This document shows positions 26,455-34,419 of a stretch of 44,504 nucleotides of DNA, piece by piece. The DNA is from Acidaminococcus intestini DSM 21505 (lineage in GTDB: Bacteria > Bacillota > Negativicutes > Acidaminococcales > Acidaminococcaceae), in the NCBI RefSeq assembly GCF_000425045.1, contig NZ_AULA01000019.1, positions 1 to 44,504 of the forward strand. Reading direction: 5' to 3'. The notes under the pieces were generated by a model. That model did not search any database. It was not told where the DNA came from and was given only the letters and a program-made list of their open reading frames with translations. The position numbers were made by a program, and so were the translations under genes. The first letter of the stretch is position 1, and every line of letters starts with the position of its first letter.

Positions 26455-26872
26455 CTACTTGGCCTCCTAAAAAATATTGCGAAAAACCACACCAAACGTA
26501 TGTCAAAACTCATTGTCGTAACATTCATTAAGTCCGCTTTTTCTGAGGTTCATTCTATCATACTCCCCACGCTTTTACAAGAAGATTGTCCAGTGATTTT
26601 TTCAAAACAGTTCCCGTACTTCCTATGGTTTCCATGGGCATAAGAGCAATAGGGCATAAAAAAAGCTCCTGTTTTCAGAACTTTCGAAACAATTTTCGTC
26701 TTGTTTATCTGAGACGCAAACGTCCCTCCTTTCATGATGGAGGTGTCCCTCTGTCTTTAAGAATGTTTTCACTGCGCTGATAGCCTCATAGAAGATTGCC
26801 GCTGACGAAAAAGGAACCTGTCCAGTCCCTTTCTTACGGGCAAAAAGGCCGCTCAGATGAGACAAAAAGAAA
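26455..26872. other. Leader and gene-free interval upstream of the cold-shock gene
   Basis: About 420 bases without a supported gene. 26455-26545 is the predicted csp leader. Between 26586 and 26872 two minus-strand open frames exist but have no ribosome site and no recognisable product. A weak stem near 26662-26682 followed by T7 on the minus strand (AGGAGC then TTTTTTT) could terminate an unrecognised small transcript. Confidence 0.45.
26552..26580 (-). promoter_or_regulatory. Promoter of the cold-shock gene
   Basis: On the minus strand, -10 TAGAAT (26552-26557) and -35 TTGTAA (26575-26580), spacer 17. Confidence 0.55.
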
Positions 26873-26909
26873 GACCTCGAAAAAATGCGTAATCCATTTT
26901 CTCGAGATC
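26866..26909 (-). terminator. Terminator after the GIY-YIG gene
   Basis: On the minus strand, stem GATCTCGAGAAAATG / CATTTTTTCGAGGTC (plus 26873-26909) with G-U pairs and loop of seven, followed by TTTCTTTTTG. It closes the TrxR-like, lipoprotein, cyclophilin, GIY-YIG run. Confidence 0.85.
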
Positions 26910-26928
26910 TTGTCAGCCAGAGTGCCGC

Positions 26929-27219
26929 TTAGGGGTTCTTTGCCTTGCAAGCAGAAAGGGGTAGGGAGCCAGCCGCAAAAGTTTTGACAAGGGCTTCCTT
27001 TTCCTTTTTCGTCAGTTTCTTGATAGCGCATTCCCGTTTCAAGGCTTCACTTTTTCCGGGGAGCTCTTCATAGTAAACCATGGAAAGGGCATGGAAAGCA
27101 TGCGTAAACTTGGCTCCTTTTCCTGATACATGGGCCTTCAGCCGTGCTGATAGGTCCGTGGTCCACCCCGTATATAGGGAGCCATTGGCACAGCGAACCA
27201 TGTACACGTAAGCTGCCAT
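26929..27219 (-). CDS. GIY-YIG domain protein (UPF0213/YhbQ-like)
   Basis: 96 residues with the single GIY-YIG nuclease domain in its short YhbQ form. The catalytic strand motif appears as YVYMVRC...GSLYTGWTTD (about residues 4-22), with the Arg in LSARLKAH and the Glu in GKSEALKRE. Proteins of this group have been linked to DNA repair and cleavage, but the cellular role is unsettled. It overlaps the stop of the cyclophilin gene by one base (TAATG), implying coupled translation, and is last in its transcript. Confidence 0.9.
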   Translation of the reverse strand: MAAYVYMVRCANGSLYTGWTTDLSARLKAHVSGKGAKFTHAFHALSMVYYEELPGKSEALKRECAIKKLTKKEKEALVKTFAAGSLPLSACKAKNP

Positions 27220-27686
27220 TATTTCAGGATTTCCACCTTATTCATGACCACGTCTTCAAGCGGACGGTCCTGGAAATCCGTCGGTGTGGACCCGATCTTA
27301 TGGACAATGTCCATGCCTTCCACGATCTTGCCGAAAATGGCGTGATGGCCATCGAGCCACGGCGTTGGCACAAGGGTAATGAAGAACTGGCTGCCGCCTG
27401 TATTGGGCCCAGCATTGGCCATGGAAAGAATGCCTTCCCCGTCATGTTTGAGTCCTGGTCCAAATTCATCGTCGATCTGGTAGCCTGGGCCGCCCATGCC
27501 TGTACCGGTTGGATCTCCGCCCTGGATCATGAAATCATCAATGACCCGGTGGAAAATAACACCGTCATAGAACCCTTTTTCTGCAAGATCAATGAAATTC
27601 TGGGCCGTCTTGGGCGCTTTGTCCTCAAAAAGTTCAGCTGTAAAATCGCCCAAGGTTGTTGAAAATCTAACTTTCTTGTTCATCAT
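27219..27686 (-). CDS. Peptidyl-prolyl cis-trans isomerase (cyclophilin type)
   Basis: 155 residues of the cyclophilin fold. Key residues are visible: [25 protein letters not shown] (about residues 50-74, with catalytic R), [21 protein letters not shown] (F and the W that binds cyclosporin). It accelerates proline isomerisation during folding. There is no signal peptide, so it is cytoplasmic. Two ATGs overlap at the start (27686, 27683). A -10 TATAAT (27698-27703) without a clear -35 sits just upstream, so it may also have its own promoter in addition to read-through from the lipoprotein gene. Confidence 0.95.
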
Positions 27687-27737: not shown

Positions 27738-28727
27738 TCAATAATCCCGCACGACAAGGCGGGAAAGATTCAGGGCTTCCCGTCCCGGCTGGGGCTGGGT
27801 TCTTTCGGCGAAGAGGAAAAGCTGTCCCTTATCGTCGACATAGAAGTTATCTTCTTCAAAGGCCGCCTCGCCGCCAAAGGCTTCGACAAGGGCACGTGCC
27901 TTAGCTAGGTTCTCCTTCCCAATAAAATCACTAAGGGTCAGACGGCGGCCGCTTGCAAGATCAAAAGTCATGGCGTACTGGATGTCTGTCACAGCGCTGG
28001 TCATGATGCGTGGGTCGGCGCCTCCCCACAGGGGGGACACGAACGCATAGCGCTCCACTTCCTTCCAGCTAGGACCATCATTGATGGATTTCACACTGTA
28101 AGCCCGGTAGCGGATAGGCGGTCCGGAAAAATAAAAGCTCAGGATGTTCCGCCGGTTATAGGTTACATGGCAGGAAAGATCACTGCCCACAGGTCCCGTC
28201 ACAAAGCGGTACACATCGAGATAACGGCCGATTTCCCGATTGATGGCAAGTGCGACATCAGATGCCACCCCTCCGATAATCTGAGGATAGGTGCTGCGAT
28301 GGACCTTGCTGATTTCTTCAAGGGTTGCCTGCTGACCTGCCTTAAGCGCCGTCTCCGGAATGGTATACCAACCGGTCACGCCATCGCGCGTCGTAACTTT
28401 GGCCCATTCCTTTTTTCCTAAGACACGTTTTCCGTAAATCATGCCTTCACTGCCTTGCGGGACTTCCCGGACGATGGCTGTCGGGCTTTCTTCAGGCAAA
28501 CTGCGGAGATAGCCGCCGGAAAACAGGACCCGTTCCATCTTATGTTCCCGCGTTACAAATTCGATTCGGGCACCATGATCGTTTTCACCGGTTGTCGTGG
28601 TCTTGGTTTCCCGCTGGGTATTTTCAGCAGGCACGACATCGGGAGTCTTTTGATCTTTCTTTTCCCCACTGCAGCCAGCGGTCAGCAGGGCGGCAAGGAT
28701 CAAGGAAAGAAAAGCCGAGCCTTTCAT
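27738..28727 (-). CDS. Lipoprotein with SH3-like and DUF3298/RsiV-like regions
   Basis: 329 residues. A lipoprotein signal peptide ends in LLTAGC (cysteine at residue 19), so it is anchored in the inner or outer membrane facing the periplasm. Residues 80-130 (SPTAIVREVPQGSEGMIYGK, then WAKVTTRDGVTGWY) look like a bacterial SH3 domain. The last 160 residues match the DUF3298/RsiV pattern (TFDLASGRRLTLSDFIG near residue 250). Such lipoproteins may bind cell-wall glycans or peptides; the role is not known. It overlaps the TrxR-like gene upstream by one base (TGATG). Confidence 0.82.
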   Translation of the reverse strand: MKGSAFLSLILAALLTAGCSGEKKDQKTPDVVPAENTQRETKTTTTGENDHGARIEFVTREHKMERVLFSGGYLRSLPEESPTAIVREVPQGSEGMIYGKRVLGKKEWAKVTTRDGVTGWYTIPETALKAGQQATLEEISKVHRSTYPQIIGGVASDVALAINREIGRYLDVYRFVTGPVGSDLSCHVTYNRRNILSFYFSGPPIRYRAYSVKSINDGPSWKEVERYAFVSPLWGGADPRIMTSAVTDIQYAMTFDLASGRRLTLSDFIGKENLAKARALVEAFGGEAAFEEDNFYVDDKGQLFLFAERTQPQPGREALNLSRLVVRDY

Positions 28728-29578
28728 CAGCCCTTTTTCCTCAAGTAATCTGCCGCGCCAAAGACAGCGACAAGACCGTCGCCCGTGGCTTTACTGATCT
28801 GCAGGGGCTGTCCAATGCAGTCACCGGCAGCATAGACACCGGGAATATTCGTTTCCAGACGTTTATTCACCTTGATGGTGTTTCCTTCCATGGCAAGTTC
28901 TGGCAAAAGGCGGGTTACAGGGTCACTTTCCCGAAGGATGAAAAGGCCGTCCATCCGCTGGGCATCATCAGCCTGCAGTACAAGCTCCTGCCCGTCCTTT
29001 GCAACACTCTTGGGGCGGTCCTTCCGTACGGTCACATTGCCCGGAACAGGGCCTTCCACATCAAACGTCACATAGGCTGTCACCTGACTTGCAAGACCTG
29101 CCAAAAATTCCACTTCGTGCCACTGGGCAGGAACGGTACAGATGACGCCAATGGGACGGTTCCGATAAAAGTTCCCGTCGCAGGTCGCGCAGTAACTGAT
29201 TCCTGTCCCCACAAGGTCTGCTTCTCCCATAAGCTGGGCTGAACGGGGAATGCCCAAGGCGAGGATAACAGTCTTTGCCTCGGTTACGCCGCTTGGCGTG
29301 GCAAGATAAAAATGGCCGTCCAGGTTCATGATGCTAAGGATTTTTTCAGATACGATTTCCGTTCCGGCTTTTTTGGCATGGTCCAAGAAGGCTTGCATGA
29401 GCGCCTTGCCTGAAATGTCGGGAAAGCCAAGGTAATTTGTGATATGGGAAGCCTTTTGCAACGCAAGGCCAAAACTGCCCGGATCAAACAGAACAGTCGA
29501 TAAATTGCGGTTTTTCGCCGTGACCGCGGCACTGAGGCCAGCCGGTCCGCCGCCAACGATAGCAAGATCATAAATCAT
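28727..29578 (-). CDS. Thioredoxin-reductase-like flavoprotein lacking the NADPH motif
   Basis: 283 residues from the ATG at 29578 (AAGGAGAA upstream); the frame is open 97 codons further up but crosses the promoter. The FAD motif is GGGPAGLSAA (residue 9 on), the redox pair is C130-A-T-C133 and the second FAD motif is VYAAGDCIG near residue 250. After the CATC the canonical GGGDSA pyridine-nucleotide loop is replaced by VICTVPAQWHEVEF, and the HRR motif that binds the NADPH phosphate is absent. This pattern matches ferredoxin-dependent flavin thioredoxin reductases of clostridia. It overlaps the lipoprotein gene by one base. Confidence 0.88.
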   Translation of the reverse strand: MIYDLAIVGGGPAGLSAAVTAKNRNLSTVLFDPGSFGLALQKASHITNYLGFPDISGKALMQAFLDHAKKAGTEIVSEKILSIMNLDGHFYLATPSGVTEAKTVILALGIPRSAQLMGEADLVGTGISYCATCDGNFYRNRPIGVICTVPAQWHEVEFLAGLASQVTAYVTFDVEGPVPGNVTVRKDRPKSVAKDGQELVLQADDAQRMDGLFILRESDPVTRLLPELAMEGNTIKVNKRLETNIPGVYAAGDCIGQPLQISKATGDGLVAVFGAADYLRKKG

Positions 29579-29663
29579 AGGGATTCTCCTTGGGTTGTGC
29601 GAGTTGGATCTGCAGGAGCTGAAACTGCCTGCATCGCTTTTCATTATATCATATGGAGGGGAC

Positions 29664-29692
29664 AGAAAAATAGGCCGCCCAGAGGGCAGCCT
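29664..29692 (-). terminator. Terminator of the M23 peptidase gene
   Basis: On the minus strand, stem AGGCTGCCC / GGGCGGCCT (plus 29672-29692) with loop TCT, followed by ATTTTTC. Confidence 0.85.
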
Positions 29693-29702
29693 AAAAAAAC
29701 GC

Positions 29703-33130: not shown

Positions 33131-33727
33131 TCATAAAATGGGATACAACGTCATGATCCACCCCACCGACACAACGCAGGCAATTACGGAATAAAGCAGG
33201 CCCTGCTTGATCATGGAAGTCTGGTCATAGCCGCCGCATTCCATGATATAAGGAACCGCGGAAGTGGCCATCGGCGTCATAAAGGCAGAAAGGCAGGCGG
33301 CTTGAATAAGGATCATCAGCCCGACGGGATTCCCGCCGATATACGCACAAGTGGCAATGGCAATGGGATGAAAAATCAGCATTGTCCCACGATTGGACAT
33401 AAACTGCGTCATGATGAAGGGAATCAGGAAGAAAATGAATCCCACCGCATAGGAGTTCCCGTCAACGAGCTTCACAAGGGCCGCAATATGGCCGCCTATG
33501 AATTCACCGGCACCCGTTACACTAAGCGCCCCGGCCATAGCCTGGGAACCCACAATCAAAAGGAGCATGCTAATAGGAATAGAGCCCGACGCCTCTTTAG
33601 GTTTGAGGACTTTGCAGATGACCATCAAAAGAGCCCCCGCCACGCAAACTTCCCAATTTTGAAGGCCCAGCTTTTTAGCAAACATCAAGGCGATGGCATC
33701 TCCAAAGAAAATGACGATGGCAGCCAT
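33131..33727 (-). CDS. SLC13/CitT-like permease, C-terminal half (frame shifted)
   Basis: 198 residues from the first ATG, but the frame is open upstream to the A7 tract at 33763-33769 and this ATG has no Shine-Dalgarno, so it is probably not an independent start. About six membrane helices are visible. SNRGTMLIFHPIAIA and the following SAFMTPMATSAVPYIM resemble the second substrate-binding hairpin of divalent-anion/Na+ symporters. Joined to the gene at 33742 by a minus-one step it gives one permease of about 438 residues. Function of the separate half is doubtful. It ends 38 bases before ompM. Confidence 0.8.
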   Translation of the reverse strand: MAAIVIFFGDAIALMFAKKLGLQNWEVCVAGALLMVICKVLKPKEASGSIPISMLLLIVGSQAMAGALSVTGAGEFIGGHIAALVKLVDGNSYAVGFIFFLIPFIMTQFMSNRGTMLIFHPIAIATCAYIGGNPVGLMILIQAACLSAFMTPMATSAVPYIMECGGYDQTSMIKQGLLYSVIACVVSVGWIMTLYPIL

Positions 33728-33741
33728 TTCCGAAAAAGTAC

Positions 33742-34419
33742 TCAGCGGTGCATGATCTTTTGTTTTTTTGTTTCAAGGCTGGTTGGAAGGATGGGCTCGT
33801 CCGGAGAAAACCGCAAGGCAAAGAAACTGAAATAAACAATGGCAATGATCAGCATCGGCAGTCGGCCCATCATAGGATCGAGGAAGCCGACCATATGCTG
33901 CGTATAGCCATAACTTTCAATGTAGCCGTTCAGTTCGCCTGCTACGGTCGCACCTGCACCAAGGGGCAGGGTACAGCAAGTGCAGATAGTGGCCACGCCC
34001 ACGGGAAAAATGACCTTACTGGGACTGATTCCCATGCTTTCCGCAGAAGCAATGAGCATGGGGGCCACAATCCCAAAGACAACGACAGGACTTTGGATGA
34101 ACTGGCTGAGAAGAACCCCGATGAGCACGTATCCCAGCATCATCTTCTTGACACTGCCCTGTGCCAAACGGGAAATCCCATCAGCCAGCCGCGCGCAAAA
34201 CGCGGTCCGGTTGAATCCGGCGGCTACGACGCACATTCCCGCAATCATGATGACATTGGAATTGGAATAGTATCCCAGTGCCTGCTTTGCACTCAGACAT
34301 CCTGTAAGCGTCAGGGCAATCAAAGAAATCTGGGAAATCGTTGCAATACTATACAACCCGCTGCAGTAGCCAATTACGGTCACCGCAAAAATAAGAAGAC
34401 AGACGGCTAATTGATCCAT
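33742..34419 (-). CDS. SLC13/CitT-like permease, N-terminal half (frame shifted)
   Basis: 225 residues starting at a good ATG with AAAGGAGG. About six membrane helices are visible, and the hairpin PVVVFGIVAPMLIASAESMG followed by ATICTCCTLPLGAGATVAGE resembles the first half of SLC13/DASS-type anion transporters. The frame ends soon after a run of seven A (33763-33769) in what should be the cytoplasmic linker between halves. A one-base step back at A AAA AAA continues in the frame of the 33131-33727 gene. It follows the hydrolase gene by 21 bases. The substrate (a carboxylate or similar anion) is inferred only from the family. Confidence 0.82.
   Translation of the reverse strand: MDQLAVCLLIFAVTVIGYCSGLYSIATISQISLIALTLTGCLSAKQALGYYSNSNVIMIAGMCVVAAGFNRTAFCARLADGISRLAQGSVKKMMLGYVLIGVLLSQFIQSPVVVFGIVAPMLIASAESMGISPSKVIFPVGVATICTCCTLPLGAGATVAGELNGYIESYGYTQHMVGFLDPMMGRLPMLIIAIVYFSFFALRFSPDEPILPTSLETKKQKIMHR
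33763..33769 (-). other. A7 slip site joining the two permease halves
   Basis: On the minus strand the codons ACA AAA AAA CAA contain A AAA AAA C. A minus-one shift here reads AAA AAA ACA AAA GAT CAT and continues without a stop into the C-terminal half. Confidence 0.75.

Follow-up and report, generated by a model that had tools for sequence, protein, structure and literature searches.

Which electron donor serves a thioredoxin reductase-like flavoprotein of Acidaminococcus intestini that carries no recognizable NADPH motifs is the question raised by this locus. The window, that is, the whole stretch of DNA analysed (44,504 nucleotides from strain DSM 21505), holds an open reading frame at 28727-29578 that encodes, from an ATG start, a flavoprotein of 283 amino acids. 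The original prediction had these coordinates right and proposed a ferredoxin-linked type of enzyme; the frame lies on the minus strand. On the sequence evidence, the gene very probably encodes a ferredoxin-dependent flavin thioredoxin reductase (FFTR).

Motifs and domain length

28727-29578, minus strand: putative FFTR coding sequence, 283 amino acids (open reading frame read from the DNA; family by PDB search, domain length, two trees and profiles)
29586-29591, minus strand: AAGGAG, Shine-Dalgarno-like, 5' of the FFTR ATG (read from the sequence)
29537-29554, minus strand: GGGPAG, first FAD motif, residues 9-14 (sequence)
29180-29191, minus strand: CATC redox pair, residues 130-133 (sequence and alignment)
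29105-29146, minus strand: VICTVPAQWHEVEF, residues 145-158, at the place of the lost dinucleotide-binding loop (alignment)
29063-29071, minus strand: VTF, residues 170-172, at the HRR position (alignment)
28817-28840, minus strand: GVYAAGDC, second FAD motif, residues 247-254, with YAAGDC at 249-254 (sequence)

Both FAD motifs and the CATC pair, as originally claimed, can be read in the protein (GGGPAG, CATC and AAGDC). The proposed loss of the GGGDSA-type loop and of HRR is likewise borne out by alignment with E. coli TrxB, where GGGNTA of TrxB lies opposite VICTVPAQWHEVEF, with CTVPAQ at the loop site, and HRR lies opposite VTF. The window protein has neither GxGxxA nor HRR(xxxR), the motifs of NADPH-dependent thioredoxin reductases (NTRs). 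The three glycines of the loop, absent here, are retained in all 59 aligned rows that were selected for possession of HRR (the HRR rows). In addition, R24, P189, G256 and P258 of the window protein are found in all 32 FFTR-like rows and in at most four of the 59 HRR rows.

The distance from the CxxC to the second FAD motif is 120 residues in the window protein, 121 in the clostridial FFTRs 6gna and 6gnc and 120-124 in the 32 FFTR-like rows, compared with 132-148 in the HRR rows, and the second domain is approximately 17 residues shorter than in most of the aligned NADPH enzymes. In these alignments the shortening by itself is no proof of an FFTR, because a second group that keeps GxGxxA spans 123-130 residues and L151, which falls within the FFTR clade, spans 155. 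This second group, without HRR and with an intact GxGxxA loop (for example GAGDYA), comprises 13 loci of the same class (L141-L150, L152, L153 and L160), which join the FFTR clade in a tree of the FAD domain with a modest support of 93.

From what is described for the family (biochemistry in parts of PMC12796991 and PMC8469568), we infer a ferredoxin donor, a domain swing and a thioredoxin acceptor. Electrons would enter the FAD singly from reduced ferredoxin, the CATC domain would swing inward for its disulfide to be reduced by the flavin, and would then swing back out, where thioredoxin would be reduced. NADPH and NADH should be unusable as donors, since the second domain has lost both its dinucleotide loop and the residues that bind the phosphate, and is about 17 residues shorter than in most of the NADPH enzymes aligned.

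Family placement and predicted structure

The top matches of the window protein in a phmmer search of the PDB are the Clostridium acetobutylicum FFTRs 6gna (1.4e-55), 6gnd (3.6e-54) and 6gnc (7.2e-53), each aligned in a single stretch over residues 3-280 or 3-281 of the window protein. The next sequence is the NADPH enzyme 4zn0 (5.7e-39), which aligns in two pieces, as does 7aaw (3.3e-34). With profiles free of Acidaminococcus sequences, the window protein scores 343.3 bits against 23 FFTR-like rows, 251.0 bits against three clostridial rows and 170.0 bits against 59 HRR rows, and E. coli TrxB scores 153.3, 118.5 and 375.7 bits, respectively. The NTR model TIGR01292 gives the window protein 179 bits, which is below its curated cut-off of 343.45 bits; with the loop glycines and HRR also lost, an identity as NTR was rejected.

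In the first tree, which has 109 rows, a branch with a support of 100/100 sets apart all 32 FFTR-like rows, together with 6gna and 6gnc. This tree omits L005 (identical in sequence to L077), L102 (its frame is broken), L063 (truncated where its contig ends), L074-L076 (matches that are short or weak), repeats of the window gene and loci with other flavoproteins. Because the FFTR-like label rests on motifs, a second tree was built from the FAD domain, without the disulfide domain; among its 92 rows, L151 and 31 FFTR-like rows group as a 32-member clade with an SH-aLRT of 100. The second tree is a quick build with no bootstrap, from which 36 rows (mostly hand-picked near-copies) and the fragment L159 were omitted. 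In both trees the known FFTRs are clostridial, the Gloeobacter FFTR being compared by structure search. Clustering within the NADPH-dependent enzymes, which the original prediction had named as the outcome that would speak against it, occurs in neither tree. The proposed ferredoxin-linked family is thus supported by the PDB search, the profiles, the two trees and the shortened second domain.

An AlphaFold model of the window protein has a mean pLDDT of 91.1 and a pTM of 0.73. Foldseek puts chains of 6gnc, 6gnd and 6gna in its top five places (E 4.5e-31 to 1.0e-29, rmsd 13.7-15.3; 35-37% identity to the solved clostridial FFTRs), and most of the NADPH enzymes listed fit the model at an rmsd of about 3. 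By VIA-align, NADPH enzymes come top (5uth, Z 32.1, rmsd 2.5), 6gnc ranks 33 (Z 29.5, rmsd 13.7), and the cyanobacterial 'oxidoreductase' entries 5n0j, 5jri and 5k0a, together with 5ode, reach Z 28.6-29.5 at 18-22% identity (5ode_A, Z 28.6, 22%). The protein in 5ode is named GvDDOR in a passage of PMC8469568, DDOR being a diflavin-linked disulfide oxidoreductase, a type marked by a second flavin site. The domain pose of the model is that of NADPH enzymes, unlike the open FFTR crystals, which may be due to the input alignment, where 35 of the 37 sequences are non-FFTR. The model was therefore dropped as proof of a filled NADPH pocket.

The good overlay of the model on NADPH enzymes would suit a thioredoxin reductase that uses NADH or NADPH through an alternative binding motif, and an NADH-preferring reductase, DvTR3, is described in part of PMC5627308. 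We nevertheless consider such an enzyme highly improbable here: the loop glycines shared by every HRR row and HRR itself are both lost, the second domain is shortened, and the AhpF homologue of the same genome, which likewise is without HRR, retains the loop GGGFAA.

The FFTR reading is best compared with the C. acetobutylicum enzymes (PDB 6GNA, 6GNB, 6GNC and 6GND), with which the window protein shares a full-length match, CATC, the lack of NAD(P)H motifs, a single clade and nearly the same domain length (120 and 121 residues). The clostridial proteins keep one loop glycine (GYNKEA, GYTKEA) where the window protein has CTVPAQ, and the identity is 35-37%. The Gloeobacter violaceus FFTR (PDB 5J60, 6XTF) is also pyridine-nucleotide independent and of the same fold (5j60_A, Foldseek E 2.0e-29, 29% identity), but its solved chain has 316 residues, as opposed to 283, and carries, in the passage describing it, a C-terminal tail with a conserved tryptophan, W315. 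Desulfovibrio TRi (PDB 5NII) resembles the FFTR reading in that it is not reduced by NAD(P)H, but keeps a GEGxxAxN loop, as described in part of PMC5627308. It was rejected as the closest relative, since 12 distinct PDB sequences, including 6gna, 6gnd and 6gnc, outrank 5nii (E 2.6e-28, compared with 1.4e-55 for 6gna). Plasmid (799 records) and phage (52 records) searches returned best matches of 39.9% ([Eubacterium] eligens) and 34.4%, respectively, neither of which is close.

Acidaminococcus presumably belongs to the Negativicutes, and hence to the same group as the reductases that a survey of that class calls 'probably FFTR'. These non-NTR reductases show the same motif loss and, in the relevant passages of the survey (PMC10880999), most Negativicutes have both types, whereas the NADPH type was not found in the A. 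intestini genome. The kind of enzyme is already known from Clostridia, and its occurrence in Negativicutes has been deduced before (passages of PMC10880999); FFTRs are described for Clostridia and cyanobacteria in parts of PMC12796991 and PMC8469568. In the openly licensed literature, Negativicutes combined with thioredoxin reductase and ferredoxin returned PMC10880999 alone, and Acidaminococcus combined with thioredoxin reductase returned nothing on FFTR by title.

Gene context and the NADPH reductase

29671-29693, minus strand: terminator-like stem of 10 pairs with a T tail, between the M23 peptidase and FFTR genes (consensus match only)
27738-28727, minus strand: putative lipoprotein gene, which shares one base with the FFTR stop codon (TGATG); 'lipoprotein' read from the sequence, weak SH3 match
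27219-27686, minus strand: cyclophilin-type peptidyl-prolyl isomerase (PF00160, E 1.1e-54)
26929-27219, minus strand: GIY-YIG domain protein, end of the gene run (PF01541, E 2.3e-17)
26871-26911, minus strand: terminator-like stem past the GIY-YIG gene (consensus match only)

The order along the run is M23 peptidase, stem, FFTR, lipoprotein, cyclophilin, GIY-YIG and second stem. Terminator-like sites number 10, as against a mean of 6.3 in shuffles, and the promoter scan lists no site directly upstream of the FFTR gene. The overlap with a lipoprotein gene and the run shared with a cyclophilin, both part of the original prediction, are seen in the DNA; the SH3 assignment of the lipoprotein is weak (PF08239, 17.7 bits compared with a cut-off of 27, E 0.004). 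The context had been called unusual, but within the genus it is the rule: all eight congeners have the FFTR, lipoprotein, cyclophilin and GIY-YIG genes in this order, with the M23 gene upstream of FFTR in three of the eight congener stretches. Outside the genus, 12 stretches around FFTR genes, each of about 10 kb, gave no match at E 1e-5 to the lipoprotein, cyclophilin or GIY-YIG gene. The context is genus-specific, and the FFTR gene adjoins neither a thioredoxin nor a ferredoxin gene. Elsewhere in the window (33131-34419, minus strand), adjacent frames of 198 and 225 amino acids resemble two halves of one membrane transporter and are possibly a split gene.

All eight sampled congeners have a stand-alone NADPH-type reductase, seven of them 68-76% identical to the enzyme of the eighth (G114). 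In the genome that holds the window (G000; 2.28 Mb, 55 contigs, 99.99% complete), a stand-alone NADPH reductase was not found, the best match being 42% identical, in a 559-amino-acid frame on contig C2. This frame is a 558-amino-acid AhpF homologue (TIGR03143 622.5 bits, under the cut-off of 687.65; loop GGGFAA), and we read the gene beside it as AhpC. In the congeners, a gene that we read as Rrf2-type adjoins the NADPH reductase in eight of eight, and a thioredoxin lies on the other side in seven of eight; in the exception, G213, the contig ends where the thioredoxin would flank the reductase. On contig C6 of G000 (locus L136, 8678-9596), only 91 bases and no reductase separate the Rrf2-type gene from a WCKYC thioredoxin, which shares 58% identity with its G114 counterpart, and the congener order is kept for the thioredoxin, the Rrf2-type gene and the next two genes. 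Beyond the thioredoxin, away from the Rrf2-type gene, the neighbouring genes are unlike those of the congeners, which means that a rearrangement has taken place here as well. Thus, in this one genome of the species, the NADPH reductase appears to have been lost from the thioredoxin locus.

Two thioredoxins are present in G000 (WCGPC on C24, WCKYC on C6). The only dedicated thioredoxin reductase found there is the FFTR, beside which the AhpF homologue remains, and thioredoxin reduction in A. intestini probably runs mainly through the FFTR. The genome also encodes four full-length pyruvate:ferredoxin oxidoreductases and has 22 Fer4_10 matches, of which 19 exceed the cut-off and some lie in small frames (69, 74 and 92 amino acids). 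The apparent lack of an NADPH reductase, together with the four pyruvate:ferredoxin oxidoreductase genes, makes a ferredoxin-based control of thiols more credible. A pyridine-nucleotide-independent enzyme that draws instead on flavodoxin, or on flavodoxin and ferredoxin, is unlikely. G000 has six Flavodoxin_1 domain matches, one of them in a short 150-amino-acid frame, and a passage of PMC5627308 names flavodoxin among the candidates for the donor of Desulfovibrio TRi, an atypical enzyme; yet the clade of the window protein includes the clostridial enzymes named for ferredoxin, which the four oxidoreductases would supply.

Relatives without CxxC and distribution in the class

Among 59 genomes of family f1, the family of A. 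intestini, that were searched, FFTR genes were read in the 27 with E 2.2e-65 or better, and 12 of these, from seven genera, have lost the CxxC. The second cysteine is replaced (CAKV, CAFV, CAKI, CATR, CTHG) or both are gone (SAKV), and in G102 a cysteine occurs one place further on (CTHGC). The 12 rows form a single clade with an SH-aLRT of 100. The loci are L173-L184, from G015, G031, G058, G122, G086, G048, G204, G180, G102, G063, G225 and G153. By a simple counting method with several pairs near saturation, dN/dS is 0.02-0.107 for six CxxC-less pairs and 0.135-0.187 for four Acidaminococcus pairs, one further pair being saturated. The CxxC-less clade looks to be under purifying selection, as expected of conserved proteins and not of decaying genes. 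These proteins should be incapable of the usual dithiol relay, and their acceptor is for that reason probably a different one. The wording 'lacking the CXXC' occurs in PMC10294844 for a separate known kind, and among the matches listed in the openly licensed literature nothing by title concerns a CxxC-less FFTR form.

Since sister genera have lost the CxxC, the FFTR scaffold need not always reduce thioredoxin, which raises the alternative that the window protein, too, has given up thioredoxin reduction for another acceptor. The low dN/dS despite loss of CxxC in 12 of 27 family members would agree with this, as would a gene that travels through the genus with a lipoprotein and a cyclophilin and with no thioredoxin. 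CATC is, however, intact in the window protein, and 15 of the 27 rows, all nine of the genus among them, retain CxxC; we regard a different acceptor here as quite unlikely. Returning to the FFTR reading, we give about even chances to a broader scenario in which the input to thiol redox moved from NADPH to ferredoxin in the family, A. intestini depends on the FFTR after losing the NADPH reductase of its thioredoxin locus, and the flavoprotein of the sister clade, devoid of the disulfide, passes electrons to a non-thioredoxin acceptor. The missing NADPH enzyme and the CxxC-less clade are both worth following, the latter being the stranger point.

An FFTR-scoring match is present in 102 of 300 sampled genomes of the class, counted by score as E 8.7e-52 or better (103 rows, G225 occurring twice; the next row is at 3.9e-42). 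The 28 of these 102 whose best TIGR01292 match has E 3.9e-62 or weaker were searched further; excluding G008 (177.5 bits) and G051 (71.7 bits, 198-amino-acid frame), each for a second fragment, leaves 26 with no further TIGR01292 match above 92 bits. Of these 26 genomes, 21 reach a completeness of 90% or more, and their contamination does not exceed 5%. For the remaining 74, the stronger TIGR01292 match could represent an NADPH reductase or, as it does in G000, an AhpF homologue. In four of the 26 (G015, G063, G102 and G153), the CxxC-less form is the sole TIGR01292 match above 92 bits. The curated TIGR01292 cut-off, exceeded in 43 of the 300 genomes, was dropped as a criterion, as many plausible NADPH types were excluded as well.

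Because 26 of the 102 FFTR genomes show no other match above 92 bits, A. intestini may not be alone in having an FFTR without the NADPH type. Part of PMC12796991 reports FFTR as the sole route of thioredoxin reduction for some cyanobacteria, and a species without the NADPH enzyme would offer a direct test, beyond these, of whether an FFTR alone can carry thioredoxin reduction. In four complete-looking genomes of family f28 (G050, G060, G065 and G070), nothing matches the window protein at E 0.001, the best TIGR01292 matches have E values of only about 1e-16 to 1e-18, and a thioredoxin reductase is not evident. None of the best 25 of 32 NCBIfam matches of the window protein reaches its own cut-off, and the relative in Lachnospira eligens bears the annotation 'NAD(P)/FAD-dependent oxidoreductase'; FFTR-type proteins are thus easily misnamed.
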